Assembly (NCBI GenBank): GCA_017744365.1
Contig: JAGIBL010000002.1
Coordinates: 186,001-250,000 of the forward strand
Source of the DNA: Nocardioidaceae bacterium
Lineage (GTDB): Bacteria > Actinomycetota > Actinomycetes > Propionibacteriales > Nocardioidaceae
DNA: 64,000 bases
Direction of reading: 5' to 3'
Shown here in pieces: positions 34,715 through 53,353 of this stretch (its first letter is position 1; the number at the start of each line of letters is the position of its first letter). The notes under the pieces were generated by a model. It was not told the DNA's origin, made no database searches, and was given only the letters and a program-made list of their open reading frames with translations. The translations under genes were made by a program, and so were the position numbers.

Positions 34715-36711
<1,997 letters not shown>

Positions 36712-36725
<14 letters not shown>

Positions 36726-37905
36726 GCTGCCGTTCACGCGCGCCGAGTACGCCGCCCGGCTGGACCGGGTCCGCGCCGAGATGGCCGCCCGCGGGGTGGA
36801 CACGCTGCTGGTCAGCGCGCCCGAGGGGATGTGCTACCTGCACGGCTACACGGCCCGCTGGTACCGCGCGCACTCCTCGACGCACTACCCGCCGCTCGCG
36901 GTCACGGTGGTGCGCGCCGGCGAGCCGGGACTGCTCCACCTGGACTTCGCGCGCGAGCGGGAGCTGCTCGCGGCCACCTCGCTCGTCGACGACGCGGCCT
37001 GCTACGAGCTGGCGCTCTACGACGGCGACGGCGCCGGCGCGATCGACCAGGTCGCCGCCACCCTGGCCGCGCGCGGCTGGCTCGCCGGGACCGTCGGGCT
37101 GGAGCTGGGGTCCTCGGTGCCGAACCGCGCGGTCAGCGAGCAGGTGCAGGCCGCCTTGGTCGCGCACGGCGCCACCTCGTTCGTCGACGCGACGGCCGTG
37201 CTGCGTGTCGTACGACGGGTGAAGTCGGCCGCCGAGATCGCCCTGCTGGAACGCGCCGCCACCGCGGCCGACGCCGGGCTGACCCGGCTCTGGAGCACCC
37301 TCGAGCCAGGCCGTACCGAGCTCGAGCTGTGGGCCGAGCTGGTCGGCGCGATGGTGGCCGCGGGCGGCGAGCCGGCGGCCAGCCACGAGCTGGTCACCCG
37401 CGGCGGGCTCGGCCTCGGGCACGCGCTGTCCGGACGGGCGCGGATCCGGCCCGGCGACACCGTGATCGCGGACCCGTGCGGGGTGGTGCACCGCTACCAC
37501 GCGAACACCTGCCGCACCTTCAGCGTCGGGCCGGGCGACGCGGGCGACGTACGGGAGCAGCGGATCGCGGGTGGGGCGGTCGCGGTGCTCTGCGAGGTCG
37601 CCACTGCCGGCACGCCGTACGGCGTCGTCAACCGCGCGCTCCAGGAGTACTACCGCGAGCACGGCGTGTGGCAGGACTGCCTGTGGGCCGGCGGCTACGA
37701 GCTCGGCCTGAGCCTGCCCCCGGACTGGGTCGGCGAGGACGGCTTCGACGTGGCCGCGCTCGACGACGAACGGCTGGTCGAGGCCGGCACCGTGACCAGC
37801 TTCCACAGCAACTTCCGGCTCCCGTACGTCGACACGGTGGTGTTCGGCGCGGACGGCACCCGGGCGCTCTCGACGCTGCCCCGCGAGCTGCTGGTGGCCG
37901 CATGA
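36712..37905 (+). CDS. M24 (pita-bread fold) protein without the usual metal ligands
   Basis: A 397-residue protein. The N-terminal creatinase-type domain (about 10-150) precedes a pita-bread domain (about 165-397). Metal aminopeptidases of M24 have Asp, Asp, His, Glu, Glu. Here the first Asp survives (Asp254 in VIADPCG), the second is Asn265 (HANTCRT), the His loop reads 'WAGGYELGLSLPPDW' and the Glu regions read 'TVTSFHSNFRLPYVDTVVFG'. A classical aminopeptidase is therefore unlikely. Creatinase and ectoine hydrolase show that this fold can hydrolyse C-N bonds without metal, but their catalytic residues are not obviously present either. It overlaps the ATPase gene and the DUF202 gene, so it probably acts on the imported compound. 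Confidence 0.8.
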
Positions 37906-38252
37906 GCGGGCGCACCGCTCCCGTCGGTGACGGTCCGGACTACCGGGCCTCGCTGGCCAACGAGCGCACCTACCTGGCCTGGATCCGCACCTCGCTGGCG
38001 ATGCTGGCGGGCGGGGTCGCGGTCGTCGAGCTGGTGCCACCGTTCGCGTTCACCGGCGCCCGCGAGCTGCTCGGCGGGGTGATGGCCTCGCTCTCGCTGA
38101 CCCTGGCCGCGTCCGCGCACCGGCGCTGGTCGGCGGTCGAGCGGGCGATGCGTCAGGGCGACGTGCTGCCGCACTCGCGGCTGCTGCCGCTGGTGGGTGT
38201 GGTGCTGTCCACGACAGCGGCCGTGGTGCTCGCCTTCATCCTCGTGGGCTGA
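37902..38252 (+). CDS. DUF202 (YidH family) small membrane protein
   Basis: A 116-residue protein with three hydrophobic segments. The N-terminal 'YRASLANERTYLAWIRTSLAMLAGGVAVVEL' is the clear DUF202 signature. The function is unknown. It overlaps the M24 gene by 4 nt (ATGA), and its 3' end overlaps the convergent CocE-type gene by 17 nt. Confidence 0.88.
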   Translation: MSGRTAPVGDGPDYRASLANERTYLAWIRTSLAMLAGGVAVVELVPPFAFTGARELLGGVMASLSLTLAASAHRRWSAVERAMRQGDVLPHSRLLPLVGVVLSTTAAVVLAFILVG

Positions 38253-39903
38253 CGCGCCTCACCGGCAGCAGCACCGCCGAGGGGTGCTCGGCGTCGTGGT
38301 GGATCGCCTGGTGCGCGGGCCGCAGCTCGGCGTCGTGGGCGAAGGCACGGCCGGTGTTGTGGTTGCGGTCGAAGTTCGGGAAGTCCGAGCTGGTGACGTC
38401 GACACGGATCCGCTCGCCCGGGCGGAACAGCACGCTGACCGGGCTGAGCTCGACCAGGTACCGCTGCGGGCTGTCGTCGGTGAGCGGCACCTCGGCGCCG
38501 TACCCGTGCCGGTAGCGCGCCCGCAGGATGCCCTCGGCCAGGTTCACCGCGACCCCGTGCTCGTCCACCCGGACCAGCCGGGCGACCCAGTCCGTGTCCG
38601 GCGCGTCGGTGCCGGCCCAGAGCACCACCCGGACCAGGCCGGCCACCTCGACGGGCTGGAGCAACGGGCCGGTCTGGTACACGAGCTTGTCGGGTCGGTG
38701 GTCGTTGCCGCGCTGGTCGAGCGGGGCGAGCTGCGCGTCCGCCCCCATCAGGCTCATCACCGGGTCCCGCGGGTCGAAGGTGTAGCGGTCGGGCTGCTCC
38801 TCGCCGGGTGCCTCCCAGGTCAGCCCGCCCTCGGCGCGCAGGTGCAGCCGCTCGGTGCTGGTGTCCGCCGGCGGCCAGGTCGCGAAGGACTGCCAGCGCT
38901 CCAGGCCGAGCGTGTAGACGCTCGCCGGTGGTGCGTCGGACGCGGGCGCGCCGCGCAGCAGCGGGTCGAAGAAGCCGGTGACGATGTCGACGAAGGAGCG
39001 GGCGGTGTCCGGTCCGGAGCCGAGCACGTCGTACCGCTCGCCGAAGCCGTCGGGGTCGTGGCTCCACGGGCCGACCACCAGCCGGTGCTGGTCGCGGGTC
39101 TCCTCCGGGCCGTGCTCGCGCATCAGCGTGAAGTGGTCGACGCCGCGCACGAACCGGTCCCACCAGCCGGTGACCACGCAGGTCGGCACCTGCACCCGCG
39201 GGTGGATCTCGTCGAAGGCCCACAGCTCGCGGTCGATCTCGTCGTAGTAGTCGGCGAGCATCCGGGTGATCCCGGCGAAGACCTGCTCGGGCACGTCGGC
39301 CAGCGGGTGGAACCAGAGCCACTTGCCGCGCTCCATGCCCACCCAGTCGGTGTGCGCGTCCTCGGCGGTCAGCGGCCCGTCGGTGCGGCCGGCCCGGCGG
39401 CGCGCGTCGGCGGCCTCCAGGTAGCACCACTCCAGCCGGCGGCCGAGGTCGAGGATGCCGCGGGTCACGTCGAGCAGGCCGACGGTGATGCCGGCCGCGA
39501 CGATGCCGCGCAGGCTCGGCGGCTGCTCCCCCGCGAGCCGCCACGCGGCCCAGGCGTCGTACGAGTGCCCCCAGACGCCGACGGTGCCGTTCGCGTCCGG
39601 CAGCGCGGCCGCCCACTCCACGCTGTCGTAGCCGTCCTCGGCCTCGATCCGCTGCGCCGCCGCGGCGAAGGCCCACACCCACTGGCCGTCCGAGGCGTGC
39701 CGGCCGCGGATGTCCTGGACCACGACGAGGTAGCCGCGATCGGCCAGCGCCTCGGCCAGGTGCGCCCAGGACTCCTTCGCGTACGGCGTCCGCCGCAGCA
39801 GCACCGGGAACGGCCCCTCCCCCTCGGGTCGGTAGACGTCCGCGCGCAGCAGGGTGCCGTCGCGCATCGCGCCGGCGACGTCGTAGGAGACCTTGATGCT
39901 CAC
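38236..39903 (-). CDS. CocE/NonD family hydrolase (X-Pro dipeptidyl-peptidase S15 type)
   Basis: A 555-residue serine hydrolase. 'MRDGTLLRADVYRPEGEGPFPVLLRRTPYAK' is the family opening, followed by 'VVVQDIRGRHASDG'. The nucleophile is Ser in 'GVWGHSYDAWAAW', the Asp is in 'VTGWWDRFVRG' and the His in 'LVVGPWSHDPDGF'. A C-terminal jelly-roll domain ('LVYQTGPLLQPVEVAGLVRVVLWAGTDAPDTDWVARLVRV') follows. It cleaves esters, amides or X-Pro peptides. The GTG start overlaps the stop of the ComA-like gene (GTGA), so the two form an operon. Confidence 0.92.
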   Translation of the reverse strand: MSIKVSYDVAGAMRDGTLLRADVYRPEGEGPFPVLLRRTPYAKESWAHLAEALADRGYLVVVQDIRGRHASDGQWVWAFAAAAQRIEAEDGYDSVEWAAALPDANGTVGVWGHSYDAWAAWRLAGEQPPSLRGIVAAGITVGLLDVTRGILDLGRRLEWCYLEAADARRRAGRTDGPLTAEDAHTDWVGMERGKWLWFHPLADVPEQVFAGITRMLADYYDEIDRELWAFDEIHPRVQVPTCVVTGWWDRFVRGVDHFTLMREHGPEETRDQHRLVVGPWSHDPDGFGERYDVLGSGPDTARSFVDIVTGFFDPLLRGAPASDAPPASVYTLGLERWQSFATWPPADTSTERLHLRAEGGLTWEAPGEEQPDRYTFDPRDPVMSLMGADAQLAPLDQRGNDHRPDKLVYQTGPLLQPVEVAGLVRVVLWAGTDAPDTDWVARLVRVDEHGVAVNLAEGILRARYRHGYGAEVPLTDDSPQRYLVELSPVSVLFRPGERIRVDVTSSDFPNFDRNHNTGRAFAHDAELRPAHQAIHHDAEHPSAVLLPVRRVSPRG

Positions 39904-40700
39904 GCGTCCACCTCCGCGGGCGTCGCCAGCGCCGGGCCGACGCCGCGCCGTCGCGCCTCCAGGAACAGCACGTCCTCGGGCACCACGTTGGCCAGGCTGA
40001 CCTCGGGCCCGAACTCGGCGAGCAGGAAGGCGGTCATCGCGTGCACGTGGTGCAGGCTCACCCCGGGGATCCACGGGCCGGGCAGCTCGAAGACCACGTC
40101 CTCGAGGTCCAGGCCGGCGGCGATCGCGTCCACCACGTCGGTGCGCACGACGCCGTCCTCGAGCAGCTCGGCGCCCTCGACGAGCACCTTCCAGCAGCCC
40201 AGGTCGCGCAGGCTGCGGGCGTCGTCGAGCAGCCCCGCCGCGGTCGAGTGCACGCTCTTGCTGCCCACCTCGCCGAGCACGACCAGGTCGCGGGACAGCG
40301 CGTCGCGGACCAGCCGCTCGCGGACGCCCTCGCCGAGGCGCTCGGCGTTCTCGGAGACCTCGACGACGCGGAAGCCCGCGGCCACGGTCGCGTCCAGGTA
40401 GGCCTCCTCGCGACCGTGCAGGTGCGCGTACTCCAGGTACATGCCGCCCGGGAAGCACTCGACCCCGGCGTCCCGGTAGGCCGTGACCTTCTCCTCCAGC
40501 ACGCCGTCCGGGAGCAGGCCGGCGATCCCGACCGCGACCTTGGCCAGGTCGAGGGCGTGCCCGTGCACGCGCAGCTGGTCGCGCTGCAGGTCGAGCGGGG
40601 TGCCGAACTCGACGGTGACGGTCAGCCCGGAGGTGCGGGGCTTCGCGGCACGCGGGCGCAGCGGCAGGGCGGCGTAGCCAGGACGGTCGGCAGGGGTCAT
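39900..40700 (-). CDS. Phosphosulfolactate synthase (ComA)-like TIM-barrel protein
   Basis: A 266-residue protein. The run 'LPDGVLEEKVTAYRDAGVECFPGGMYLEYAHLHG' then 'FRVVEVSENAERLG', 'VVLGEVGSKSV', 'CWKVLVEGAELLEDGVVR' and 'EFGPEVSLANVVPEDVLFLEARRRGVG' follows the ComA family segment by segment. ComA adds sulfite to phosphoenolpyruvate. The usual KFGWGT start is KVAVGIA here and SDGT is SENA, so the substrate may differ. The ATG at 40700 is preferred; 40736 is possible. It is the first gene of the operon with the CocE-type hydrolase, and divergent genes are absent. Confidence 0.75.
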   Translation of the reverse strand: MTPADRPGYAALPLRPRAAKPRTSGLTVTVEFGTPLDLQRDQLRVHGHALDLAKVAVGIAGLLPDGVLEEKVTAYRDAGVECFPGGMYLEYAHLHGREEAYLDATVAAGFRVVEVSENAERLGEGVRERLVRDALSRDLVVLGEVGSKSVHSTAAGLLDDARSLRDLGCWKVLVEGAELLEDGVVRTDVVDAIAAGLDLEDVVFELPGPWIPGVSLHHVHAMTAFLLAEFGPEVSLANVVPEDVLFLEARRRGVGPALATPAEVDA

Positions 40701-40746
40701 GGCTCGATTCAAGGCGGTGCGCCGGACGGGGTCCAAGACCGGATCG

Positions 40747-40760
40747 CTATACGCCTATAG
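40747..40760. promoter_or_regulatory. Palindrome CTATA-CGCC-TATAG upstream of the ComA-like operon
   Basis: A perfect 5-4-5 inverted repeat overlapping the TAG stop of the LysR gene and lying 46 bp before the ComA-like ATG. The half-site CCTAT/ATAGG also occurs in CCATAGGC near 41694, upstream of the LysR gene. It may be a promoter element or a regulator site, and evidence is thin. Confidence 0.3.
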
Positions 40761-41648
40761 GGCGGTGCCGGTCTCGGGCTCGCCCGTGTGCGACTGGACC
40801 ACGAGGCTGGTGAAGGCCGCGGCGGCCGGCGCCGGGTCGGTCTCGGCGAGGGCCACGCCGACCCGGTGCACCAGCGGCGGCTCCAGGGGCACCAGGTGCG
40901 CGCCGCCCTTCGCCGCGTTCTGCGCGTGCGGCTCGATGAGCAGAGCGGCCCCGACACCGCTGAGCACCAGCTCGACCAGCGCGTGCGCGGACCGGGCCTC
41001 GACCCGGATCCCCTCGCCGGCACCGGCCTCGTCGATGATCCGCCGGGTGACGGTGCCGCTGGGCAGCGCGACCAGCGCGAGGCCCTTGAGCTCCTCGCGC
41101 GCCAGCGTGCCCGATCGCGGCCGGGTCGCCTTCGGCGGGAACGCGACGTAGAGCTGGTAGTCGAGCAGCGGCCAGGTGCGCAGCCCGGTGGTCGAGCCGG
41201 AGAGCTCCAGCAGCCCGACCTCGGAGGCACCGCTGCGGATCCGCTCGGCGGCCTCGCCGGAGTCGACCGCCTCGGTGATCTCCACGCTGACGCCGGGGAA
41301 CCGGCGGCTGAACGCGGCCACCAGCGCGACCGTCGGGTAGACCACCAGCGAGCGCGGCGCGGTCAGCTCCAGCCGGCCGGTCTCCAGCTGGGCCACGCCG
41401 TGCACCGCCTGCTCGGCGTCCTTCATCGCGCGCAGCGCCCGCCGCGCCGGGGTGATGAGCGCCTCGCCCGCGGGGGTGAGCTCGATGGAGCGGCTCAGCC
41501 GGCGGAACAGCGGGCTGCCCAGCTCCTGCTCGAGCGCCCGGATCGACTGCGAGAGCGACGGCTGCGCGATGTGCAGCGCCTCGCCCGCCTTGGTGAAGCT
41601 GCGGTGCTCTGCCACCGCCAGGAAGTACGACAGTCTCCGGGCGTCCAC
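40755..41648 (-). CDS. LysR family transcriptional regulator
   Basis: A 297-residue regulator with a GTG start. The N-terminal helix-turn-helix is typical: 'RRLSYFLAVAEHRSFTKAGEALHIAQPSLSQSIRALEQELGSPLFRRLSRSIELTPAGEAL'. The effector-binding domain spans about residues 90-290. It lies upstream of and in the same direction as the ComA-like/CocE genes (55 bp gap) and divergent from the TrxB-like cassette start at 41767. LysR proteins usually control a divergent neighbour, so the redox cassette is a likely target. Confidence 0.92.
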   Translation of the reverse strand: MDARRLSYFLAVAEHRSFTKAGEALHIAQPSLSQSIRALEQELGSPLFRRLSRSIELTPAGEALITPARRALRAMKDAEQAVHGVAQLETGRLELTAPRSLVVYPTVALVAAFSRRFPGVSVEITEAVDSGEAAERIRSGASEVGLLELSGSTTGLRTWPLLDYQLYVAFPPKATRPRSGTLAREELKGLALVALPSGTVTRRIIDEAGAGEGIRVEARSAHALVELVLSGVGAALLIEPHAQNAAKGGAHLVPLEPPLVHRVGVALAETDPAPAAAAFTSLVVQSHTGEPETGTAL

Positions 41649-41766: not shown

Positions 41767-42711
41767 GTGCACGGAACTCACCTGACTCGGTACGACGCCG
41801 TGGTCGTCGGCAGCGGACCGGCGGGCTACACCGCCGCGGTCTACCTGGGCCGCGCCGGCCGCTCGGTCGTCCTCCTCGAAGGCGGCACCGCCCCCGGCGG
41901 CGCGCTGATGACCACCCCCGAGATCGAGAACTACCCGGGCTTCCCGGACGGCGCCGGCGGACCGGAGCTGATGGACTCGATCCGCCGCCAGGCACTGCGC
42001 TGCGGCGCCACGCTGGTGCCGGTGGACGCGGCATCGGTGGAGCTCACCGGGGCCGGCCACCGCGTCGTCGCCGCCGACGGCACCGCGTACGACGCCCGCG
42101 CACTCGTGCTCGCCACCGGGGCCGAGCACCGCCGTCTCGGCATCGACGGCGAGGACCGGCTCGCGGGGCGCGGCGTCAGCTGGTGCGGCACCTGCGACGG
42201 CCCGTTCTTCGCCGGCCGGGACGTGGTCGTGGTCGGCGGCGGCGACACCGCCGTCGAGGAGGCGTGCTTCCTGTCCCGGATCGCCGGGCAGGTGCACCTG
42301 GTGCACCGCTCCGCGCGGCTGCGGGCGAGCCGGGTGCTGCAGGACCGGCTGGCCACCCGCGCCAACGTGACCGTGCACCTGGACACCCGGGTGCGCGCGA
42401 TCGAAGGCACCGACCGGGTCACCGGGGTGCGGCTGGACCAGCGCTCGCTGCCCGTCGCCGGTGTCTTCGTCGCCATCGGGCACGACCCGCGCAGCGCGCT
42501 GGTCGCCGGTGCCGTCGAGACGACCGCCTCCGGTCACGTCGTGGTCGAGCACCCGTCCTCGCGCACGAACGTGCCCGGCGTCTTCGCCTGTGGTGACCTG
42601 GTCGACCCGACCTACCGGCAGGCGATCACGGCGGCCGGCAGCGGCTGCGTGGCCGCGCTCGACGCCGACGCCTACCTGGCCGCGCGCGACACCACCCGGG
42701 ACGCGGCATGA
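41767..42711 (+). CDS. trxB: Thioredoxin reductase-like FAD/NAD(P)H flavoprotein
   Basis: A 314-residue flavoprotein. The FAD motif is 'AVVVGSGPAGYTAAVYLGRAG', followed by 'PEIENYPGFP'. The redox-active pair is Cys140/Cys143 in WCGTCDGPFF (the usual form is CATCDG). The NADPH motif is 'VVVVGGGDTAVEEACFLSRIAG', and the C-terminal FAD segment is 'VPGVFACGDLVDPTYRQAITAAGSGCVAALDA'. It reduces a thioredoxin, very likely the one encoded next (ATGA overlap). The start is GTG. As a specialised cassette copy it may be separate from the housekeeping TrxB. Confidence 0.92.
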   Translation: MHGTHLTRYDAVVVGSGPAGYTAAVYLGRAGRSVVLLEGGTAPGGALMTTPEIENYPGFPDGAGGPELMDSIRRQALRCGATLVPVDAASVELTGAGHRVVAADGTAYDARALVLATGAEHRRLGIDGEDRLAGRGVSWCGTCDGPFFAGRDVVVVGGGDTAVEEACFLSRIAGQVHLVHRSARLRASRVLQDRLATRANVTVHLDTRVRAIEGTDRVTGVRLDQRSLPVAGVFVAIGHDPRSALVAGAVETTASGHVVVEHPSSRTNVPGVFACGDLVDPTYRQAITAAGSGCVAALDADAYLAARDTTRDAA

Positions 42712-43034
42712 ACCCGGTGACCAGCGACTCGTTCGACGACCAGGTCCGCCGGTCCGCACTCCCGGTGCTGGTCGACTTCTGGGCTCCGTGGTGCACCCGC
42801 TGCGCGGGGATGGAGCCGGCCGTGCGCGAGGTCGCGACGACCTTCGCCGGGCGCGGCAGCGTGGTGACCGTCGACGTCGAGGCCCATCCCGAGCTGGCCG
42901 CCGAGCACCTGGTGCTCTCGCTGCCCGCGGTCGCGTTCTACCGCGACGGTGCGGTGGTCCGCACCCTCGCCGGACCGCGGTCGGCCGAGGAGCTGGCCGC
43001 GGCGTTCGAGGAGGTGCTCGATGGCCAGCACTGA
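42708..43034 (+). CDS. Thioredoxin with unusual WCTRC active site
   Basis: A 108-residue thioredoxin. The fold signatures are 'PVLVDFWAPWCTRCAGMEP' (active-site Cys29 and Cys32) and the cis-Pro loop 'LSLPAVAFYRDG'. Housekeeping thioredoxins have WCGPC, and the Thr-Arg between the Cys here should shift redox potential or partner choice. It is coupled to the reductase upstream by ATGA and overlaps the next gene by 14 nt. It is probably the dedicated electron carrier of the cassette. Confidence 0.9.
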   Translation: MNPVTSDSFDDQVRRSALPVLVDFWAPWCTRCAGMEPAVREVATTFAGRGSVVTVDVEAHPELAAEHLVLSLPAVAFYRDGAVVRTLAGPRSAEELAAAFEEVLDGQH

Positions 43035-44088
43035 GATCGCCGGACCCGGGCCAGGAACCGAGCACGAGGTCGCCGACCTCTGGAGCGCGATCGAGTACTG
43101 CCACGAGCAGGGCTGGACCGACGGGCTGCCGGTGGTGCCGCCCGCGGAGGAGCTGGTCGCCGCCTTCACCGAGGAGGCCGGGTGGCAGCCCGACGACGTG
43201 CTCGCGGTCGAGCCGGTCCGCGGCCGGGAGATCACCGCCGAGAAGGTGGTTGCGTGCGCGGTGATGGCCGGCTGCCTGCCGTCGTACCTGCCGGTGGTGG
43301 GGGCCGCGCTGCGGGCGATGAGCACCCCGCAGTACCAGCTGCACGGCACCGTCACCAGCACCGGCGGCGCGGCGCCGCTCATCGTGGTCAACGGGCCGGT
43401 CCGGGACCGGATCGGGCTCAACTACCAGGGCAACCTGTTCGGGCCGGGCTGCCGCCCCAACGCCGCCATCGGGCGCGCGGTGCGGCTGGTCCTGCTCAAC
43501 TGCCTCGAGGCGGTGCCCTCGGTGCTGGACCGGTCGACGCAGGGGAACTTCGGCAAGTACAGCGGCTGCTTCGCCGAGTACGAGGAGGCCAGCCCCTGGG
43601 AGCCGTTCTCGGTGGCGCGCGGCTTCGAGCCCGGCACCAGCACGGTCACCGTCTTCGCCGGCGAGTCCGGCCACAACCTGCTCAGCCACGGCAGCCGCCG
43701 GCCCGAGCAGCTGCTGCTGCTGATCGCCGACGCGATGTCCGCGCTGGGCAGCCTCAGCGCCGGCGAGTCGCTGGTGGTGCTCGCCCCCGAGCACGCCGAG
43801 ATCCTGCGCGAGCAGCGCTGGTCGCGGGCGAAGGTGCAGGAGTTCCTCTACGACCACGCCCGCCGCGACCTGGCGACCGTGAAGCGGGCCGGCAAGCTCG
43901 AGGGCCAGTACGACATCGGCCCCGAGGACGAGCACACCTGGCTGCACCGCGGCGAGGGCCCGCAGGACATCCACCTGCTCGTCGGCGGCAGCGAGGCCGG
44001 CGGGCACTCGGCGTTCTTCCCGTCGTGGAGCCGCGTGCGCGGCAGCCTCGCGGTCACCGTCGCCGTCGAGGAAGGAGAAGGAGCATGA
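43021..44088 (+). CDS. Conserved protein of unknown function with 'DGLPVVPP' motif, partner of the UGSC family protein
   Basis: A 355-residue soluble protein. It begins with 'YCHEQGWTDGLPVVPPAEELVAAF', then 'ACAVMAGCLPSYLPVVGAALRAM', 'APLIVVNGPVRDRIGLNYQGNLFGPGCRPNAAIGRAVRL' and 'STQGNFGKYSGCFAEYEEASPWEPFSVARGF'. I recognise the pattern as a family often next to UGSC proteins, but I know no assigned reaction. Three Cys (in MAGC, GPGC and YSGC) look conserved in character. The position between thioredoxin and the UGSC protein suggests one subunit of a thiol-dependent redox enzyme. That function is inference. Confidence 0.75.
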   Translation: MASTEIAGPGPGTEHEVADLWSAIEYCHEQGWTDGLPVVPPAEELVAAFTEEAGWQPDDVLAVEPVRGREITAEKVVACAVMAGCLPSYLPVVGAALRAMSTPQYQLHGTVTSTGGAAPLIVVNGPVRDRIGLNYQGNLFGPGCRPNAAIGRAVRLVLLNCLEAVPSVLDRSTQGNFGKYSGCFAEYEEASPWEPFSVARGFEPGTSTVTVFAGESGHNLLSHGSRRPEQLLLLIADAMSALGSLSAGESLVVLAPEHAEILREQRWSRAKVQEFLYDHARRDLATVKRAGKLEGQYDIGPEDEHTWLHRGEGPQDIHLLVGGSEAGGHSAFFPSWSRVRGSLAVTVAVEEGEGA

Positions 44089-44915
44089 GCGCACCCGTGC
44101 GCCTGGTCAGCCCGCGGCTGCGAGCGACCGAGGAGGCGTTCACCGAGGCACCCCGGCCGGGCTCGCTGGACGGGATGAACGTGGTGCTGCTGGCCAACGG
44201 CAAGACCCACGGCGAGCTGCTGCTCGACGAGGTGGTCGCGGTGCTGGCCGAGAAGCACGCCCTCGGCGACGTACGACGCTGGACCAAGCCTCACCCGAGC
44301 GCCCCGCCGACGCCGGAACAGCTCGACGAGATCCGCGCCACCGGGGGCGTGGTGCTCTCCGCGATCGGCGACTGCGGCTCGTGCAGCTCGTGCTCGGTGG
44401 TCGACGGCATCCGCTTCGAGCGGCTCGGGATGCCGGCCGCCGTGCTCATCACCCAGCCGTTCGTGCCGACCGCCGCCGCGATCGCCGCGATGAACGGCGC
44501 CCCGTCCTTCGAGGTCGCGGTGATGCCGCACCCGGTGACCAGCAGGGCACCGGAGTCGCTGCGCGCCGAGGCCCGCCGCGCAGCCGCCAGGATGGAATCG
44601 ATCCTGCTGCACGGCCACCACGCCGCCACGGCGCCGGAGGCCGCGGTCGCCCTGGACGCCGGACTGGTCGACCGGGCGCTCGCCGACGTCCGCGCCGCCC
44701 TCGCCTCCGACGGGGTCGACCTGGTGCTGCGCTCGCTCGCCGAGGGCCGCCTCACCTTCGAGCTGGTCACCACCGACGCCTCCTGCGCGGACTGCGTGAT
44801 GCCGGCCGCGACCATCTCCGCGATGGTCACCTCGGTGCTCACCCGGGCCTCGGGCAGCCCCGTCCAGGTGCACGTCGAGGACGTCCGGCTCTCCCACGGG
44901 CACGTCACCGCATGA
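44085..44915 (+). CDS. UGSC family protein, cysteine form (CGSC)
   Basis: A 276-residue protein. The family is named for a Sec-Gly-Ser-Cys motif in selenoprotein members. Here the site reads GDCGSCSSC with Cys97, Cys100 and Cys103, and codon 97 (44373-44375) is TGC, not TGA. A second Cys pair occurs at 234/237 (ASCADC). The protein is soluble and also has 'VLLANGKTHGELLLDEV' near its start and 'AVLITQPFVPTAAAIAAMNG' mid-chain. The dedicated TrxB and thioredoxin upstream fit a thiol redox enzyme that is re-reduced by them. The reaction is unknown. It is coupled to both neighbours by ATGA overlaps. Confidence 0.8.
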   Translation: MSAPVRLVSPRLRATEEAFTEAPRPGSLDGMNVVLLANGKTHGELLLDEVVAVLAEKHALGDVRRWTKPHPSAPPTPEQLDEIRATGGVVLSAIGDCGSCSSCSVVDGIRFERLGMPAAVLITQPFVPTAAAIAAMNGAPSFEVAVMPHPVTSRAPESLRAEARRAAARMESILLHGHHAATAPEAAVALDAGLVDRALADVRAALASDGVDLVLRSLAEGRLTFELVTTDASCADCVMPAATISAMVTSVLTRASGSPVQVHVEDVRLSHGHVTA

Positions 44916-46202
44916 GCCTCGACGCGACCTGGCTGCCCGCCCGGCAGGTGCCGTTCTGGCTGGACACCCCGGACCGGCCGGCCCCGCGGCCCGCGCTGGC
45001 CGGCGATGTCCGCACCGACCTGGCCGTCGTCGGCGGCGGCTTCACCGGGTTGTGGACCGCCGTGCTGGCCAAGGAGCGCGACCCCGGGCGCGAGGTGGTG
45101 CTCGTCGAGGGCGAACGGGCGGTCCCGCTTCCCGGCCGAGTACGACGTCCTGCACCGGCTCGGGCTGGAGAACCTCGACGAGATCGAGAAGTCGGTGGCC
45201 GCCTACGGCATCGACTGCGCCTTCGAGCGCACCGGCGCCCTCGACGTCGCGGTCAACCCGCACCAGCTGGCCGACCTGCGCGACGAGCCGGGCTTCCTCG
45301 ACGCCGCCGCCGTGCGCGCGGAGGTGGACTCGCCGACGTACCTGGGCGGGCTCTGGGACCGGCGCGGCAACGCGATGCTCGACCCGGCCCGGCTGGCCTG
45401 GGGGCTGGCCGACGTCGCCGAGGCGCACGGCGTCCGCGTCGTCGAGAACACCGGCGTCCGCGCGCTGCGCCGGGACGGCAACCAGGTCGCGCTGCACACC
45501 GGCACCGGAACCGTCCGTGCCGACCGGGTCGCGCTCGGCACCAACGTGTTCCGCTCGCTGCTGCGCCGGACCCGGCTGCACGTGGTCCCGGTCTACGACC
45601 ACGTCCTGGTCACCGAGCCGCTCAGCGCCGACCAGCTCGCCGCGATCGGCTGGCGCAGCCGGCAGGGCATCAGCGACGCCGGCAACCAGTTCCACTACTA
45701 CCGGCTGACCCCGGACAACCGGATCCTGTGGGGCGGGTACGACGCCGTCTACCACTACGGCCGGCGGATGCACGCCGAGCACGACCAGCGACCGGCCACC
45801 TTCCGGGTCCTCGCCGAGCACTTCTTCGAGACCTTCCCGCAGCTGGCCGGCCTGCGGTTCAGCCACCGCTGGGGCGGCGCCATCGACACCTGCACCCGGT
45901 TCTTCGCCTTCTACGGCACCGCGCTCGGCGGCCGGGTCTCCTACGCCGTCGGGCACACCGGCCTGGGCGTGGGGGCCTCCCGGTTCAGCGGCAACGTGAT
46001 GCTCGACCTGCTCGCCGGCGAGGCCACCGAGCGCACCGAGCTGGCGATGGTGCGCAGCAGGCCGCTGCCGTTCCCTCCCGAGCCGTTCGCCTACGCCGGC
46101 ATCCAGGCGACCCGCTGGTCGCTCGCCCGGGCGGACGAGGTGGGCCGCCGGAACCTCTGGCTGCGCACCCTGGACCGGCTCGGTCTCGGGTTCGACTCCT
46201 GA
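44912..46202 (+). pseudogene. FAD-dependent amine/amino-acid oxidoreductase (DadA/PuuB type), frameshifted by an internal deletion
   Basis: The start at 44912 reads MSLDATWLPARQVPFWL and then the FAD motif 'DLAVVGGGFTGLWTAVLAKERDPGREVVLVEGE'. From about 45114 homology continues in the +1 frame: 'NGRSRFPAEYDVLHRLGLENLDEIE' through to 'GRVSYAVGHTGLGVGASRFSGNVMLDLLAGE' and a stop at 46202. At the junction (GGCGAAC, 45110-45116) the family segment of roughly two dozen residues that normally carries the 'SGRNGG' FAD-contact motif is missing. The loss must be 3n+2 nt. The rest of the gene is intact, so the event looks recent. It overlaps the UGSC gene by 4 nt and ends the cassette. An assembly fault is possible. 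Confidence 0.82.
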
Positions 46203-46226: not shown

Positions 46227-46682
46227 TCAGCCGCGCTGCCAGACGGTGACGTCCAGGCCCTCGTCCAGGCAGTCCAGCCCGACCTGGGTGACGACGACCG
46301 CGCCCGGCACCGCGAACGCGTGCGCCTCGCCGTAGCTGACCGCGGGCAGGGAGAGCTGGCACGGCTCGGGCAGCAGGCTCTTCACCTGGCCGCCGACCAT
46401 GTTGGCCAGCTCGCCGAAGGCGTCGCGGACCTCGGCCTCGTCGAGCTCCTCGGGCGCGGCCTGGAACATCGCCCCGGCCGCCCGCCGGACCAGCGTGCGC
46501 GAGCAGGACAGCGCGACCGATCCGTTCCAGGTGCCGCTGATGTGCACCGCGGCATGCGCCTCGTGGGCTCCCCCGGTGCCGGCCGCGGTCGTGCTGCTCA
46601 GCGGCAGCTGGAGCACGGTGTCCCAGACGGCACCGGTGATCTCCAGGACGTGCTCGGGAGCGATCATCGCTTCGCTCGTCAT
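46227..46682 (-). CDS. cheX: Chemotaxis phosphatase CheX-like protein
   Basis: A 151-residue CheC/CheX-fold protein. The phosphatase motif E-x2-N is visible in 'AFGELANMVGGQVKSLL' (Glu and Asn in GELANMVGG). The C-terminal strand ends 'LDVTVWQRG'. It dephosphorylates CheY-P in systems that lack CheZ. The ATG overlaps the cheR stop (ATGA). It is the last gene of the chemotaxis operon. Confidence 0.85.
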   Translation of the reverse strand: MTSEAMIAPEHVLEITGAVWDTVLQLPLSSTTAAGTGGAHEAHAAVHISGTWNGSVALSCSRTLVRRAAGAMFQAAPEELDEAEVRDAFGELANMVGGQVKSLLPEPCQLSLPAVSYGEAHAFAVPGAVVVTQVGLDCLDEGLDVTVWQRG

Positions 46683-47515
46683 GCGGATGCCTTTCCGTCG
46701 CGCAGCCGGTACGCGGTCGCCCGGCCGATCTGGAGCCGCTCGAAGGAGTCGTCCAGGTTGAGGGTGGTCTCGGCACCGCCGAGGAACAGGAATCCGTCCG
46801 GGCGCAGCACCCGCCGCACCCGCGCCAGGATCTGCCGCTTCACCTCGGTGTCGAAGTAGATGAGCACGTTGCGCAGGAAGACCACGTCCATCGACGGCAG
46901 CACCGGCCACTCCTCGGCGAGGTTGAGCGACCGGGTGTCGATCATCTGCCGCAGGTCGTCGCTGATCCGCCAGGAGAGCCCGTCGCGGCGGAAGTGCCGC
47001 ACCAGCGCCGCGGCCGGCAGGCCCCGGTTCACCTCCAGCTGGCTGTAGCAGCCCTCGCGGGTGCGGGTCAGCATCTGCTGGGACAGGTCGGTGGCCAGCA
47101 GTCGCACCCGCCAGTGCGGGTCGGCGGCGAGGACGTCCCGGACCGTCATCGCGATGCTGTAGACCTCCTGCCCGCTCGAGCAGGCCGCGCTCCAGATGTT
47201 CAGCGAGCGCTCGGCCGCACGGGCGCGGATCAGCTCGGGCAGCACCCGCTCGGTCAGCGCCTGGAAGGGAGCGCCGTCGCGGAAGAAGGAGGTCTCGTTG
47301 GTGGTCATCGCCTCGACCACCTCGTCGCGCAGCGCGGCGTGCGGCGCGCGCTGCAGGTCGGCGACCAGGTCGGTGATCGAGTCGTGCCCGCGCTCGCGCA
47401 CCAGCGGGAGCAGCCGGGACTCGATGAGGTACTCCTTGCCCGGCTCGAGCACGATCGCCGCCCGGTCCCGGACCAGCTTGCTGATGTAGTGGAAGTCGCC
47501 CACGGTCATGGTCAT
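46679..47515 (-). CDS. cheR: Chemotaxis protein methyltransferase CheR
   Basis: A 278-residue S-adenosylmethionine-dependent methyltransferase that methylates glutamates on MCPs. The N-terminal helical domain ('LVRDRAAIVLEPGKEYLIESRL') precedes the catalytic domain with 'TTNETSFFRDGAPFQAL', 'NIWSAACSSGQEVYSIAM' (SAM binding), 'LLATDLSQQML' and 'MDVVFLRNVLIYFD'. The start MTMTVG overlaps the cheB stop (ATGA). Confidence 0.94.
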   Translation of the reverse strand: MTMTVGDFHYISKLVRDRAAIVLEPGKEYLIESRLLPLVRERGHDSITDLVADLQRAPHAALRDEVVEAMTTNETSFFRDGAPFQALTERVLPELIRARAAERSLNIWSAACSSGQEVYSIAMTVRDVLAADPHWRVRLLATDLSQQMLTRTREGCYSQLEVNRGLPAAALVRHFRRDGLSWRISDDLRQMIDTRSLNLAEEWPVLPSMDVVFLRNVLIYFDTEVKRQILARVRRVLRPDGFLFLGGAETTLNLDDSFERLQIGRATAYRLRDGKASA

Positions 47516-48597
47516 CGCAGCACCGCCCGCCGCTGCTCGGTCCCCGCTCGCTGGAGCCGGGACAGGATCGCCGCGCCCACGTCCGCGAGCGGCAGCACCT
47601 CGGCGGGCACGCCGGCCGCGACCACCGCGCCGGGCATCCCCCACACGACCGAGGTGGCCTGGTCCTGGACGATCGCGGACCCGCCGGCCTCGACGATCGT
47701 CGCGGCACCCCGGGCGCCGTCGGAGCCCATCCCGGTGAGCACGACGGCGAGCACGCGCGGTCCGTAGATCTCGGTGGCCGAGCGGAACAGCACGTCCACG
47801 GCCGGCCGGCAGTAGTTCTCCTGGGGCCCCTGGTCGAGCCGCCCGACGACGCCGGCGGGCGTCGACCGCAGCCGGAGGTGGTGGTCGCCCGGGGCGATCA
47901 GCACGGTCCCGGGCCGGAGCACGTCGCCGTCCTGCGCCTCGCGGACGGTGAGGCCGGACCGGGCGTCGAGCCGCTGGGCGAACAGGCCGGTGAAGACCGG
48001 CGGCATGTGCTGCACGATCGCCACCGGCACCGGGAGGTCCGCGGGCAGCGCGCCGATGACCGTGGCCAGCGCGTCGGGACCGCCGGTCGAGGAGCCGATG
48101 ACCACGACGTCCGGAGGCGCGCCGGTGCGCGCGGGGACGGCCGGGGCGACCCGGCGCGCCGGTGCCGGCGCGGGGACGTGCGGGGTGCGCACCCCGGTGA
48201 GTGCCTTGATCCTGGGAATCAGCTGGGCCCGGACGGCGTCCATCGCCGCGGTCACGCTGCCGACGTTGGCGGGCTTGGTGACGTAGTCGTTCGCGCCCCG
48301 CTCCAGCGCGTCCAGGGTGGCCGAGGCGCCGAGCTCGGTCAGCGTGGAGAACATGATCACCGGCAGCCGCGGGTGGGCGGCGCGCAGCGCGACCAGCGTC
48401 TCCAGGCCGTCCATCACCGGCATCTCGATGTCGAGGGTGACCAGGTCGGGTCCGAGCTGGGCGATCTTCTCCAGGGCGATCTTGCCGTTGACGGCGGTGC
48501 CGACGACCTCGATCGCGGGGTCCTCGGCCAGGACGTCGGAGACGAGGCGCCGTACGACGACGGAGTCGTCGACGACCAGGACGGAGACAGGCGGCAT
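47512..48597 (-). CDS. cheB: Chemotaxis response regulator / methylesterase CheB
   Basis: A 361-residue protein. The receiver domain (about 1-125) has the acidic pair VVDDS and the phosphorylated Asp in 'LVTLDIEMPVMDG'. A Pro/Ala linker follows. The methylesterase domain (about 165-350) has the catalytic Ser in 'VVIGSSTGGPDAL', the His in 'AIVQHMPPVFTGLFAQRL' and the Asp in 'VVLTGMGSDGARG'. It removes methyl groups from MCPs for adaptation. It lies 8 bp after cheY and overlaps cheR. Confidence 0.94.
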   Translation of the reverse strand: MPPVSVLVVDDSVVVRRLVSDVLAEDPAIEVVGTAVNGKIALEKIAQLGPDLVTLDIEMPVMDGLETLVALRAAHPRLPVIMFSTLTELGASATLDALERGANDYVTKPANVGSVTAAMDAVRAQLIPRIKALTGVRTPHVPAPAPARRVAPAVPARTGAPPDVVVIGSSTGGPDALATVIGALPADLPVPVAIVQHMPPVFTGLFAQRLDARSGLTVREAQDGDVLRPGTVLIAPGDHHLRLRSTPAGVVGRLDQGPQENYCRPAVDVLFRSATEIYGPRVLAVVLTGMGSDGARGAATIVEAGGSAIVQDQATSVVWGMPGAVVAAGVPAEVLPLADVGAAILSRLQRAGTEQRRAVLR

Positions 48598-48605
48598 CGG
48601 GCGCC

Positions 48606-48971
48606 TCACGCCAGCCCGAGCAGGCGGAGCTTGTCGGCGATGTCGTCGGGCGAGAACGGCTTGATGACGTACTCGTGCGCGCCGGCGGCGAGCGCACGGA
48701 CGATCTGGCCGTGCTCGCTCTCGGTGGTCACCATCATCAGCGTGATGTCGCGCCACTCGGGCACCTTGCGGACCCGGGTGACGAACTCCAGCCCGTCCAT
48801 CACGGGCATGTTCCAGTCGACCAGCGCGACGTCCGGCCGGGGCCCGCGTCGTACGGCGTCGAGGGCCTCGGCCCCGTCGCCGACCGCCTCGACGTCGTAC
48901 CCGAGACCCTGCATCAGCCGGCTCAGGATGGTCCGCATGGCGCGGGAGTCGTCGATCACGAGAGCGCGCAT
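48606..48971 (-). CDS. cheY: Chemotaxis response regulator CheY
   Basis: A 121-residue single receiver domain. It has acidic Asp7/Asp8, phospho-acceptor Asp52 in 'VALVDWNMPVMDG', the Thr switch in 'LMMVTTESEH' and the conserved Lys in 'YVIKPFSPDD'. It carries the signal from CheA to the motility apparatus. No flagellar genes lie in the window. It is 29 bp after the MCP gene. Confidence 0.92.
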   Translation of the reverse strand: MRALVIDDSRAMRTILSRLMQGLGYDVEAVGDGAEALDAVRRGPRPDVALVDWNMPVMDGLEFVTRVRKVPEWRDITLMMVTTESEHGQIVRALAAGAHEYVIKPFSPDDIADKLRLLGLA

Positions 48972-49000
48972 CGCTCGTCCTTCCGTCGTCTCGCGAGGAG

Positions 49001-50581
49001 TCAGTACCGGAACTGGCCGACCAGCTGCTGCAGGTCCGAGGCCATCCGGGCCAGCTCGTCGGCCGCCTGCGCGGTGTTGCCCGCCCCGGTGGTCGTGTCC
49101 GTCGCCGCGCGCGCCACCACGGTGATGTTCGTCGCGATCTCGCTCGACCCGGTCGCCGCCTCGGTCACGTTCCGGCTCATCTCGTTGGTCGTCGCGGTCT
49201 GCTCCTCGACCGCCGAGGCGATCGTGTTCTGGGTGTCGGAGATCTGCGCGACGATCTGCGAGATCTGCCCGATCGCCGTCACCGCCGCGGTCGTGTCCGC
49301 CTGGATCGCCTCGATCCGCGCCGCGATGTCCTCGGTCGCCTTGCCGGTCTCCTGCGCCAGCTCCTTGACCTCGCCGGCCACCACCGCGAAGCCCTTGCCG
49401 GCCTCGCCGGCACGAGCCGCCTCGATCGTCGCGTTGAGCGCGAGCAGGTTCGTCTGCTCCGCGATCGAGTTGATCACCTTGATGACGTTCCCGATCTCCG
49501 CCGAGGACTCGCCCAGCTTCGCCACCGTCGCGTTCGTCGCCTCCGCCACCGAGACCGCCTGCGCGGCCACCCCGGCCGCATCCGCGGCGTTCTTCGCGAT
49601 CTCCCGGATCGACGCGGACATCTCCTCGGTCCCCGCCGCCACCGTCTGCACGTTCTGCGAGACCTGCTCCGAGGCCGCCGCCACCACACCGGCCTGCGAC
49701 GCCGACTCCTCCGCCGACCCGCTCATCTGCATCGAGACGCTGCTCAGCTCCTCCGACGCCGAAGCCAGCGACTCCGCGTTGGCCCCGATCGAGGCCATCG
49801 AGGCCCTCATCCGCTCGAGGGTCTGGTTGAGCGCGGCGGCCATCTGGCCGGTCTCGTCGGCCCGGTCGGACTCCAGCGTCGAGCGCAGGTCGCCCTCGGC
49901 CACCTGGCGCAGCACGGTCACGGTCTCGGCCAGCGGCCGGGTGACCGAGCGGGCCACCACGATGCCGATGCCGAGCAGGATCGCGACGGCGAGCAGCCCG
50001 AACAGGGTGATCGTGCGCTTCGCGGTCGCGATGCGGGAGTCCAGGATCCGCTGGTCCTCGCGGTCGGCCCGCTGGATCGCCGCATCCACGCTCGGCAGCG
50101 TCTTCTCGAGCTTCTCGAAGGTGACCAGGAACGCCGGGTACTGGGCCCGCGCCTGGGCCGGGTTGCTCGCGACCAGCTTGATGATCCGGTCGGCGGCGGC
50201 CAGGTAGTCGGTCACGTCGGCGCCGACCGCCGAGACGGCCTGGCCCACCGCGGCCGGCAGGTCGGCCTTCGCCACGGCGGCCAGCTTGCCCTTCAGGGTC
50301 GCCCCGTGATCGGCGAGCGCGGTCGCCGCGCCGTCGTACGAGGAGCCGGTGGGGAACAGCAGCGCCTGCATGACGTCGCCCCGGACGGCGTCGTGCATCA
50401 TGTCGGCCTCCATCGCCAGGCCGACCGCGTCGTTCGCCTTCCGCAGGTCCTCGCTCGCGTTGCGGGCGGTGCTCATCCCGCGCACGCCGGTCACGCTCGG
50501 CACCACGATGCCGACGACGGCCACCACGACCATCGCGGCGAGCTTGGTCCGCACCCTGCGGTCGTTCCAGTACCTACGCAT
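49001..50581 (-). CDS. Methyl-accepting chemotaxis protein
   Basis: A 526-residue transducer. The first membrane helix is at about 12-34, and a four-helix-bundle type ligand domain spans about 36-186 ('[20 protein letters not shown]'). The second helix is at about 189-210 ([18 protein letters not shown]), and HAMP is at about 211-265 ('[21 protein letters not shown]'). The cytoplasmic hairpin carries the MCP tip '[38 protein letters not shown]'. The ligand is unknown. Its place in an operon beside an aromatic degradation cluster makes an aromatic attractant possible but unproven. Confidence 0.94.
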
Positions 50582-50611
50582 CGTGGATCTCCTCGTTCAT
50601 CGGGTCGTGGG

Positions 50612-51037
50612 TCATGCCGCGTCCTCCACGTCGACCGCGAGCTCGGTGTCGAGCACGAGCATCAGGCCGTCGGCCAGCTTGCAGACGCGCTTCACCAGCT
50701 CGCGCAGGTGGCGGGGCACCGTGTCCGGCGCCGGCTCGAAGGTGGACTCGGCGGGCTCCAGGACGTCGCCGATCCGGTCGACGAGCAGGCTCACCGGCCC
50801 GTCCGGCGTCCGGACGATCACGTTGACCGCGCTCTCCTCGGTCGCCGGCAGCCCGAGCCGGGTGCGCAGGTCGATGGTGGTGACGATCTGCCCGCGCAGG
50901 TTGAGCAGCCCGCGGATCTCCGGGACCGCGAGCGGCACCGGGCGGATCTCCTGGTGGCGGAGCACCTCCTGGACGTCCTGGACGGGAATCCCGAACAGGT
51001 GGCCGTCGAGCAGGAAGGTGCAGAACTGGTCAGCCAT
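50612..51037 (-). CDS. cheW: Chemotaxis coupling protein CheW
   Basis: A 141-residue SH3-like CheW protein: 'FCTFLLDGHLFGIPVQDVQEVLRHQEIRPVPLAVPEIRGLLNLRGQIVTTIDLRTRLGLP' and 'VNVIVRTPDGPVSLLVDRIGDVLE' contain the NLRG-type motif. It links the MCP to CheA. It begins 1 bp after the cheA stop. Confidence 0.94.
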   Translation of the reverse strand: MADQFCTFLLDGHLFGIPVQDVQEVLRHQEIRPVPLAVPEIRGLLNLRGQIVTTIDLRTRLGLPATEESAVNVIVRTPDGPVSLLVDRIGDVLEPAESTFEPAPDTVPRHLRELVKRVCKLADGLMLVLDTELAVDVEDAA

Positions 51038-51038
51038 C

Positions 51039-53222
51039 TCAGACCTCCACCAGGTCGGGGGCGCGCAGCTCGTCGGGCTCGGCGAACAGGACCGGGTCCA
51101 GGCCGCTGACCGCACGGGCGACGTCGACCAGCTCGGTCACCCGGCCCGCGACCACGGCCGAGCCGAGGTGGCCGCCGGTGTCGACCGGGCTGCGGACGTC
51201 GAGGTGGGCGTCGACGATGTCGAGGATCTGGTGCACGACGAAGCCGACCAGCACGCCCTGGTGCTCGCAGACGACGACCTGGACCGGCCCGGCACTCTCC
51301 TCCACCGTCCCGAAGGCCCCGAAGACCGCGTCGATCCGGACCGTTGGCAGCAGCCGGTCGCGGTACTGCACGACCTCGTGCACGCCGACCCGCTCGAACC
51401 GCTCCCGCTCGAACTCCTCGAGCCGGTCGACCACCGCGAGCGGCAGGCCGACCCGGCGACCGTCGGAGAGCCCGACGAGCAGCAGCTGGACCCCGTCGCG
51501 GCCGCTCGCGTCGACCAGCTCGGCCTCGTGCCGGGTGCCACCGTCGGCGACCATCCCGGCCCGGGCGGCCAGCACGATCGTGTCCAGGATGAGCGCGATC
51601 TGGCCGTCGCCCATGATCGTCGCGCCGGCGTACAGCGGCAGCTGCCGCAGCTGCCTGCCCAGCGGCTTGACGACGATCTCCTCGGTGTCGTTGATGGTGT
51701 CGACGACCAGCCCGTACTGACGCCCGTCGGCCTGCAGCACGGCGATGTACGTCGTCTCGCTCTCGGCCGCGGGCAGGCCCAGCTGCTCGCGCAGCGAGAC
51801 CAGCGGGAGCAGCCGCCCGCGCAGCCGGTAGACCGGAGTGCCCTGGACGTTCTCGATCCGCGGGCCCGAGCCGCCGGCGTCGAGGCGGACGAGCTCGAGC
51901 AGGTTCACCTGCGGGATCGCGAACCTTCCCTCGTCCGCGGTGACGATGAGGGCCGGGATGATCGCCAGCGTCAGCGGGATCTTGACCCGGATGGTGGTGC
52001 CACGGCCGGGCTCGCTGAGCACGTCGACCAGGCCGCCGATCTTCTCGATGTTCGTCTTGACGACGTCCATGCCGACACCGCGACCGGACACGTTGGTGAC
52101 CGTCTCGGCGGTGGAGAAGCCGGGCGCGAAGATCAACCCGTACGACTCCCGCTCGGAGAGCCGCGCGGCCGCGTCCGCGGTGAGGATGCCGCGCTCGACG
52201 GCCCGGGCGCGCAGGCGCGCGGGGTCGATGCCGGCGCCGTCGTCGCTGATCTCGATGTTGACCTGGCCGCCCTCGTGGAAGGCGCGCAGGGTCAGGGTCC
52301 CCTCGGCCGGCTTGCCCGCGGCGAGCCGGCGCTCCGGGCTCTCGATGCCGTGGTCGACGGCGTTGCGGACCAGGTGGGTGAGCGGGTCCTTGACCGACTC
52401 CAGGATGGTCTTGTCGAGCTCGGTGTCGCGGCCGACGAGGTCGAGGCGGACCTGCTTGCCGAGCTGCACGGAGAGATCCCGGACGACGCGCGGCAGCTTG
52501 CTCCAGACCGTGTCGATCGGCTGCATCCGGGTCTTCATGACCCCCTCCTGCAGCTCGCCTGCGATCAGGTTCAGCCGGTGCGTGCTGCGCTGGAGCTCGG
52601 TGTCGTGGCGCGCCGCGGCGCGCTGCACGAGCTGGTTGCGGGCGAGCACGAGCTCGCCGACCAGGTTCATCAGCGAGTCGAGCAGGTCCACGTCGACGCG
52701 GATGCTGCCGTCGGCCGCCGTACGACGGGAGGCGGGCAGCTCGGCGTCGGGCTCGGCGTCGGGCTCCGCGCCGGGCTCCGGGTCGGCCTCCACGAAGGCC
52801 TCGGGCGTCGGCGAGGGCGACGGCTCGCCGCCCTCCAGCGCCGCCTCCAGCCGTACGACGATGGCCGCGTAGTCGCGCTCCCCCTCGGCGCCGGTGCTCT
52901 CGATGTCGGCGAGCAGCGCACGCACCGCGTCCACCGCCTCCAGCAGCACCGAGGTGATCGCCGGGGTCAGGGTGAGCACGCCGTCGCGGAGCCGGGCGAG
53001 CAGGCTCTCCGCGACGTGGGTCAGCGACTCCAGGCGGTGGAAGGCGAGGAACCCGCTGGTCCCCTTGATCGTGTGCAGCGTCCGGAAGACGCTGGAGAGC
53101 AGCTCGCGCGACCCCGGGTCACGCTCGAGCTCGACCAGGTCGCGGTCGAGCTGGTCCAGGTTCTCGTAGCTCTCGACGAGGAACTCCTGGACGATCTCGT
53201 CCATCCCGTCCATGCCGTCCAC
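51039..53222 (-). CDS. cheA: Chemotaxis sensor histidine kinase CheA with two CheW-like domains
   Basis: A 727-residue kinase. The Hpt domain is at about 1-110, with the phospho-acceptor His in 'VFRTLHTIKGTSGFLAFHRLE'. A Pro/Glu/Asp-rich linker stands where the CheY-binding P2 domain would be. The dimerisation helices start 'DLLDSLMNLVGELVLARNQLVQ'. The ATPase domain has 'LTHLVRNAVDHGIESPERR', 'ISDDGAGID' and 'GRGVGMDVVKTNIEKIGG'. A first CheW-like domain follows ('ALIVTADEGRFAIPQVNLLELV'), then a second at the C-terminus ('VQLLLVGLSDGRRVGLPLAVVDRLEEF'). I used the GTG at 53222, with a G-rich site 8 nt upstream. ATGs at 53213 and 53204 are alternatives. Confidence 0.93.
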   Translation of the reverse strand: MDGMDGMDEIVQEFLVESYENLDQLDRDLVELERDPGSRELLSSVFRTLHTIKGTSGFLAFHRLESLTHVAESLLARLRDGVLTLTPAITSVLLEAVDAVRALLADIESTGAEGERDYAAIVVRLEAALEGGEPSPSPTPEAFVEADPEPGAEPDAEPDAELPASRRTAADGSIRVDVDLLDSLMNLVGELVLARNQLVQRAAARHDTELQRSTHRLNLIAGELQEGVMKTRMQPIDTVWSKLPRVVRDLSVQLGKQVRLDLVGRDTELDKTILESVKDPLTHLVRNAVDHGIESPERRLAAGKPAEGTLTLRAFHEGGQVNIEISDDGAGIDPARLRARAVERGILTADAAARLSERESYGLIFAPGFSTAETVTNVSGRGVGMDVVKTNIEKIGGLVDVLSEPGRGTTIRVKIPLTLAIIPALIVTADEGRFAIPQVNLLELVRLDAGGSGPRIENVQGTPVYRLRGRLLPLVSLREQLGLPAAESETTYIAVLQADGRQYGLVVDTINDTEEIVVKPLGRQLRQLPLYAGATIMGDGQIALILDTIVLAARAGMVADGGTRHEAELVDASGRDGVQLLLVGLSDGRRVGLPLAVVDRLEEFERERFERVGVHEVVQYRDRLLPTVRIDAVFGAFGTVEESAGPVQVVVCEHQGVLVGFVVHQILDIVDAHLDVRSPVDTGGHLGSAVVAGRVTELVDVARAVSGLDPVLFAEPDELRAPDLVEV

Positions 53223-53336: not shown

Positions 53337-53353
53337 GGTCGGTGCCACGTGGC

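Follow-up and report, generated by a model that had tools for sequence, protein, structure and literature searches.

Among the described systems closest to the locus analysed here are proline reductase and glycine reductase, the latter known from fermenting anaerobes. In the accessible part of a 2026 review (PMC13188914), the labour of glycine reductase is split among thioredoxin (Trx), GrdA and GrdB, and UxxCxxC (U, selenocysteine, Sec) is given as the GrdB motif. The UGSC family is described as one of the most abundant selenoprotein families in Global Ocean Sampling data (PMC2398784, accessible part), and it is listed in the same part of the review among the selenoproteins with largely uncharacterised functions. 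No partner gene of UGSC is named in the accessible parts of these two papers, and the former mentions UGSC fused to 'Unknown_1', which may be the protein called DGLP in this work. A 64,000-nucleotide stretch of a Nocardioidaceae bacterium (assembly GCA_017744365.1, contig JAGIBL010000002.1, positions 186,001 to 250,000), hereafter the window, carries a cassette in which DGLP and a UGSC protein are encoded next to their own Trx and thioredoxin reductase (TrxB). DGLP and UGSC are a pair that forms one system, and the UGSC domain is probably related, by distant homology, to the Sec domain of GrdB and of its proline reductase counterpart PrdB. With a probability of about 0.5, both proteins would be subunits of one enzyme working like the B component of glycine/proline reductase, in a thioredoxin-fed cleavage of C-X bonds.

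The cassette is real and is located on the forward strand. It begins with a TrxB-type thioredoxin reductase gene (41767..42711; Pfam Pyr_redox_2, 8e-52, full-length) that contains the CGTC motif (C140-G-T-C143) and scores 335.0 bits against TIGR01292 (cut-off 343.45), followed by a thioredoxin gene (42708..43034; Pfam Thioredoxin, 1e-22) with the WCTRC motif (W-C29-T-R-C32) and 73.4 bits against TIGR01068 (cut-off 96.8); both motifs had been read in the first-pass annotation of this DNA and were confirmed. The DGLP gene (43021..44088) codes for a 355-amino acid protein of no named family and putative partner subunit of UGSC, which was studied through a 53-row alignment (A4) and a predicted model. 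The UGSC gene (44085-44915) encodes a UGSC domain in the Cys form (44085..44624; PF24696, E 1e-48; NF041046), also modelled, that is fused to a C-terminal NifU-like domain with a CxDC motif (44625..44915; PF01106), stand-alone homologues of which adjoin UGSC or DGLP at other loci. These four genes are intact and chained by overlaps, and the amine-oxidase-like (DAO) flavoprotein gene that follows (44912..46202) is joined in the same way, the consecutive overlaps being 4, 14, 4 and 4 bases. Thus, the five tightly overlapping genes initially described do overlap end to end, but the fifth one is broken: it is not a single open reading frame, because it starts at 44912 and continues in another frame to 46202, with a frame change and a missing stretch at about 45.12-45.18 kb. 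One half matches positions 1-58 of the profile TIGR03329 and the other its part from 104 onward, which indicates that a stretch has been lost besides the frame. This amine oxidase had been proposed as a (former) partner, and it is not part of the system, as the gene is broken here and its second part, used as tblastn query, gave no hit above 50 bits in 112 related loci. The order TrxB-Trx-DGLP-UGSC, with the CxxC domain, recurs on an Arthrobacter plasmid, and therefore the cassette arrangement is not due to chance.

The assignment of DGLP and UGSC to one system was already made in the first-pass annotation, and the neighbourhood survey that it suggested has revealed the opposite of rare co-occurrence in both genome samples. 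In the class sample (296 genomes) DGLP and UGSC were found in the identical 17 genomes (10 genera out of 114), and each family had 24 listed matches. In the phylum sample (396 genomes) UGSC was over the cut-off in 27 genomes and DGLP was present in 29, and all 27 hold both; the two genomes with DGLP only were G475, where a 9.2-kb contig shows multiple copies of DGLP but lacks UGSC, and G627, where the match spans 108 bases. A survey of named loci, restricted to the best 80 of 546 DGLP loci and leaning to close relatives, included Acidimicrobiia, Dehalococcoidia and other Chloroflexi, Gamma-, Alpha- and Betaproteobacteria, Binatia, Rokubacteria, Acidobacteria, actinomycetes and others, and UGSC was present in 78 of the 80; in both exceptions (L099, L102) DGLP lies at a contig end or close to it. 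All 19 class regions examined contained UGSC (about 6 kb from DGLP in one, L036), as did 12 of the 13 plasmid regions examined from 24 hits (not L165), 2 of these 12 being fusions that lack the motif cysteines; the plasmid records carry the pair into haloarchaea. Same-strand DGLP/UGSC pairs within 2 kb (n=82) showed a median gap of 76 bases, 62 of them at 150 bases or less, and the distance matrices of the two proteins over these 82 pairs were correlated with r 0.886, a value reached by 0 of 2000 permutations and inflated by common ancestry or species history. Natural fusions of UGSC and DGLP, two of them Sec-containing single chains (L104, L080), point to physical contact between the subunits, and a similar contact may hold for the DGLP and UGSC proteins of the window. 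The order DGLP-UGSC-DGLP, with two DGLP copies, was observed in haloarchaeal loci (L164, L167, L170), hinting at a heteromeric partner.

The UGSC protein of the window is a member of its family over both cut-offs (PF24696, 166 bits, cut-off 25; NF041046, 125.5 bits, cut-off 125), and its motif C97-G-S-C100-S-S-C103 agrees with the family motif G-D-[UC]-G-S-C, in which Sec or Cys is followed by xxC. C97 and C100 are kept in 51/51 aligned relatives when TGA is read as Cys, in an alignment that leaves out the Cys-less fusions. Both the CGSCSSC motif and the second CxxC previously noticed in this protein are present, but the third cysteine, C103, is kept in just 22/51 relatives and the second CxxC (C234-A-D-C237) sits in the separate NifU-like domain (PF01106, 30.1 bits, cut-off 27). 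The window protein differs from the family in having Cys in place of Sec (as most matches of its own class), the NifU-like CxxC domain and its own TrxB/Trx beside it. An in-frame TGA codon was found in UGSC at 77/78 named loci, with Cys in Nonomuraea (L119), and it occupies the first motif position in 80/82 UGSC hits. TGA was found in 34/45 phylum matches vs 1/24 in the class of the window, so that relatives close to the window mostly have the Cys form. In a test of 22 chosen genomes selA was over the cut-off in 12/12 Sec-form vs 4/10 Cys-form genomes, and no selA over the cut-off was found in the genome of the window. The RNA located 3' of the TGA folds better than codon shuffles (mean z -1.29, n=80; control stretches of the same genes, -0.15, n=237).

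The resemblance to glycine reductase invoked by the first-pass annotation has been extended by a profile comparison carried out with hhalign. The UGSC alignment matched 25 PF07355 sequences at 92.9% (pairwise E 3.6e-7), with Sec aligned on Sec; this set comprised 8 canonical GrdB and 17 short sequences, one of 9 canonical sequences (L138) and 6 of 23 short loci having been dropped because the motif search gave no usable frame. Among 20 column-shuffled decoys 19 were scored, with a maximum of 1.5%, and one gave no score, and five resamples (45 of 99 UGSC rows) gave 90.1-93.5%. The 8 canonical GrdB sequences including the Sec part reached 63.7%, canonical GrdB cut before Sec 0.3%, the 17 short PF07355 relatives 84.1%, and these relatives combined with the cut GrdB 65.4%. 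The likeness to glycine reductase protein B and PrdB thus consists of the probable homology of the Sec domains and of the putative feeding by Trx and TrxB, with a separate CxxC carrier that, by analogy, would stand at the place of GrdA. The partner subunits are unrelated, DGLP being distinct from GrdE (PF09338), and UGSC has no direct PF07355 match; DGLP/UGSC is found in actinomycetes and haloarchaea, whereas the known hosts of glycine reductase are anaerobic fermenters. Selenoproteins that are short and PrdB-like (PF07355), with a UPxC motif in most cases, were also observed (L125-L137), in 6 of 12 genomes that hold the DGLP/UGSC pair as well, with seven PF07355 matches in one genome (G300). 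All 8 readable full-length GrdB proteins of the phylum (L139-L146) show UGTGTRC, in which the middle cysteine of UxxCxxC is absent.

DGLP has no Pfam or NCBIfam match, and the best Pfam match among 20 aligned relatives had an E value of only 0.056. It was first described as a three-cysteine protein; it contains six (27, 79, 85, 144, 161 and 183), of which C85 (48/53 aligned relatives) and C183 (45/53) are widely kept. The invariant residues in the 53 sequences are D34, G35, P37, A83, G84, P91, V123, G125, R152, L156 and E186; none of them is a cysteine, and therefore a role in substrate binding or acid/base chemistry is more probable for DGLP than one as thiol relay. The predicted model of DGLP is confident (predicted local distance difference test, pLDDT, 93; predicted template modelling score, pTM, 0.91).

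Regarding the electron path, a second trxB (52% identical) and trx (33%), adjacent to each other, are located elsewhere in the genome of the window, where own-genome searches yielded 5 matches each; the cassette pair is therefore additional, in line with the dedicated TrxB/Trx that had been proposed. A tblastn search detected TrxB-like genes, some of them as weak matches, at 13/112 related loci, including those of Arthrobacter, Nonomuraea, Roseovarius, Variovorax and two haloarchaea, as well as three loci from a single actinobacterial genus in which the genes are arranged otherwise (L033, L034, L036). The NifU-like CxxC domain was found at 10/112 loci, five of these rows matching by construction or weakly; the search profile was built from five of the sequences that it then recovers. 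Both features favour the Cys form of UGSC: the TrxB-like gene was present at 9/28 Cys-form vs 4/79 Sec-form loci (Fisher p 0.0006) and the CxxC domain at 7/28 vs 3/79 (p 0.003), with relatedness uncorrected in both cases. In the window and in Arthrobacter (L158) UGSC carries the CxxC domain as a fusion, as it apparently does in the Sec-form locus L045, and the domain occurs as a separate small gene directly adjoining UGSC or DGLP at L109, L119, L122, L031 and L036, and near them at L034. This arrangement resembles the division of labour among Trx, GrdA and GrdB, and on this analogy the CxxC domain may act as an electron relay.

In the mechanism proposed, electrons would flow from NADPH to TrxB, Trx, the CxxC domain, UGSC and DGLP, in this order. 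DGLP would hold or activate the substrate, and the conserved cysteine of UGSC (Sec in many relatives), as the nucleophile on a GrdB/PrdB-like domain, would attack it and cleave a C-X bond, with an intermediate that stays bound or is a disulfide/selenenyl sulfide. The fused NifU-like CxxC domain, taking the place of GrdA, would hand electrons to UGSC, and the cassette TrxB and Trx would recharge this domain from NADPH. We infer both this electron path and the reductive C-X cleavage from comparative data, from which the core idea of the first-pass annotation, a putative thioredoxin-fed system of DGLP with UGSC, gains strong support.

Several results weigh against this mechanism. A first, smaller GrdB comparison with 6 sequences reached only 7.1% (reversed control 0.09%), and the PF07355 profile found no match in 18 UGSC members at E <= 1. 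Among the five genes of the cassette there is no GrdC- or GrdD-like gene, unlike glycine reductase; PF09338, the GrdE family, was unmatched in 20 DGLP members, with 0.14% in hhalign against 9 PF09338 sequences, and the search of the DGLP model against the PDB gave no convincing fold match. The ancestral component of the distance correlation counts on the same side, as does the lack of a TrxB-like hit at 99/112 related loci; at most loci neither TrxB nor the CxxC domain lies nearby. Finally, three UGSC-DGLP fusions, from Sporomusa, Vibrio and G433, have neither motif cysteine (GDMGTSS/ADMGTSV), which indicates that this nucleophile is not required for the pair to occur and that some members of the family may lack redox activity; either the redox step was lost in those copies or the family's core reaction is independent of it. 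These fusions are located at L162:6314-8038, L166:6368-8053 and L192:3406-5046, and in two cases aconitase X and DUF126 genes lie nearby. The lower Sec share in the class of the window and the association of TrxB with the Cys form offset each other, so the odds of the glycine reductase-like enzyme are unchanged.

The Cys-less fusions bear on a reading, which we regard as unlikely, in which DGLP would be the main enzyme (a lyase, hydratase, isomerase or epimerase), UGSC would provide a nucleophile or acid/base group without redox change, and TrxB/Trx would merely keep the CxxC reduced; the association of TrxB with Cys-form loci and the probable GrdB/PrdB homology are the results that stand beside them. 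Many Trx-linked selenoproteins are of the peroxidase or detoxifying kind, and this counts for a thiol peroxidase or other detoxifying reductase, in which UGSC would reduce peroxides or disulfides on a DGLP scaffold. UGSC is grouped with Trx-fold redox proteins in the accessible parts of the 2008 paper (PMC2398784) and of the 2026 review (PMC13188914), but its predicted model shows a flavodoxin-like fold with CGSC at the N-terminus of a helix, without any chain of Trx fold in the 50 rows that each structure-search program listed, and the annotated neighbours are often transporters, coenzyme A (CoA) transferases, LysR regulators and luciferase-like monooxygenases, a catabolic context that makes this function improbable. 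An iron-sulfur system, with a cluster on UGSC or DGLP delivered by the NifU-like domain, would fit the CxxC in both domains and the PF01106 match, which is over the cut-off in the window and barely so in Arthrobacter (27.2 bits vs 27); nevertheless, the scarcity of NifU-like hits given above speaks against it, Sec would be unusual as a cluster ligand, and this is the least probable of the readings considered.

The closest cassette found is that of the Arthrobacter sp. ERGS1:01 plasmid (NZ_CP012477.1), where genes for LysR, CocE hydrolase, a ComA-like protein, trxB, trxA, DGLP (65.5% identical) and UGSC-NifU form one run as in the window; it differs in an NMT1-type ATP-binding cassette (ABC) transporter inside the run and in lacking an amine oxidase gene adjoining UGSC. 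The corresponding genes of the window are on the reverse strand: a LysR-type regulator gene divergent from the cassette (40755..41648; Pfam), a ComA-like (phosphosulfolactate synthase-like) gene (39900..40736; PF02679, 1e-44), and a CocE/NonD-type hydrolase gene of approximate start (38236..39840), 46.5% identical by tblastn over 535 columns to its L158 counterpart, which is annotated as CocE/NonD hydrolase. ComA-like genes near the pair were observed in Arthrobacter (L158:9686-10474) and Natrinema (L159:3853-4320), a possible hint of sulfur chemistry. Recurrent neighbours in the 80 named loci, as raw counts of loci, were short-chain dehydrogenases (29), luciferase-like monooxygenases (17), tripartite-transporter receptors (12) and NHL-repeat proteins (11), and in annotated plasmid regions LysR regulators, CoA transferases and tripartite ATP-independent periplasmic (TRAP) transporters were located near the pair; this context is consistent with a catabolic enzyme that serves more than one substrate. 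The window also contains a catabolic-looking run at 28689-37905, with a phenylacetate-CoA-ligase-like gene (reverse strand), a two-domain Rid-like protein, a peptide-type ABC transporter and an M24 hydrolase near ectoine hydrolase, of which the M24 gene was tested by profile and the remaining genes were read by eye from translations. A chemotaxis cluster (CheR-, CheB-, CheY-, CheA-, CheW- and receptor-like; 46227-54700), also read by eye, adjoins the cassette on the opposite strand.

A literature search through listings and through passages of PMC2398784 and PMC13188914, subscription papers and preprints aside, found no description of DGLP or of the two-gene DGLP/UGSC system. Our broader and more tentative proposal, for which we would not claim even odds, is that the pair represents a widespread undescribed class of reductases of actinomycetes, haloarchaea and many uncultured bacteria, in which a GrdB-type Sec/Cys domain would work apart from the fermentative glycine reductase complex with a new catalytic subunit, in catabolic operons, on C-X bonds of organic acids or amines, and with a small NifU-like CxxC protein in the role of GrdA. 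The function of UGSC becomes testable with ordinary recombinant proteins, and without selenocysteine insertion, through its constant partner, its likely catalytic ancestry and the Cys version that an actinobacterium carries beside a thioredoxin system of its own.

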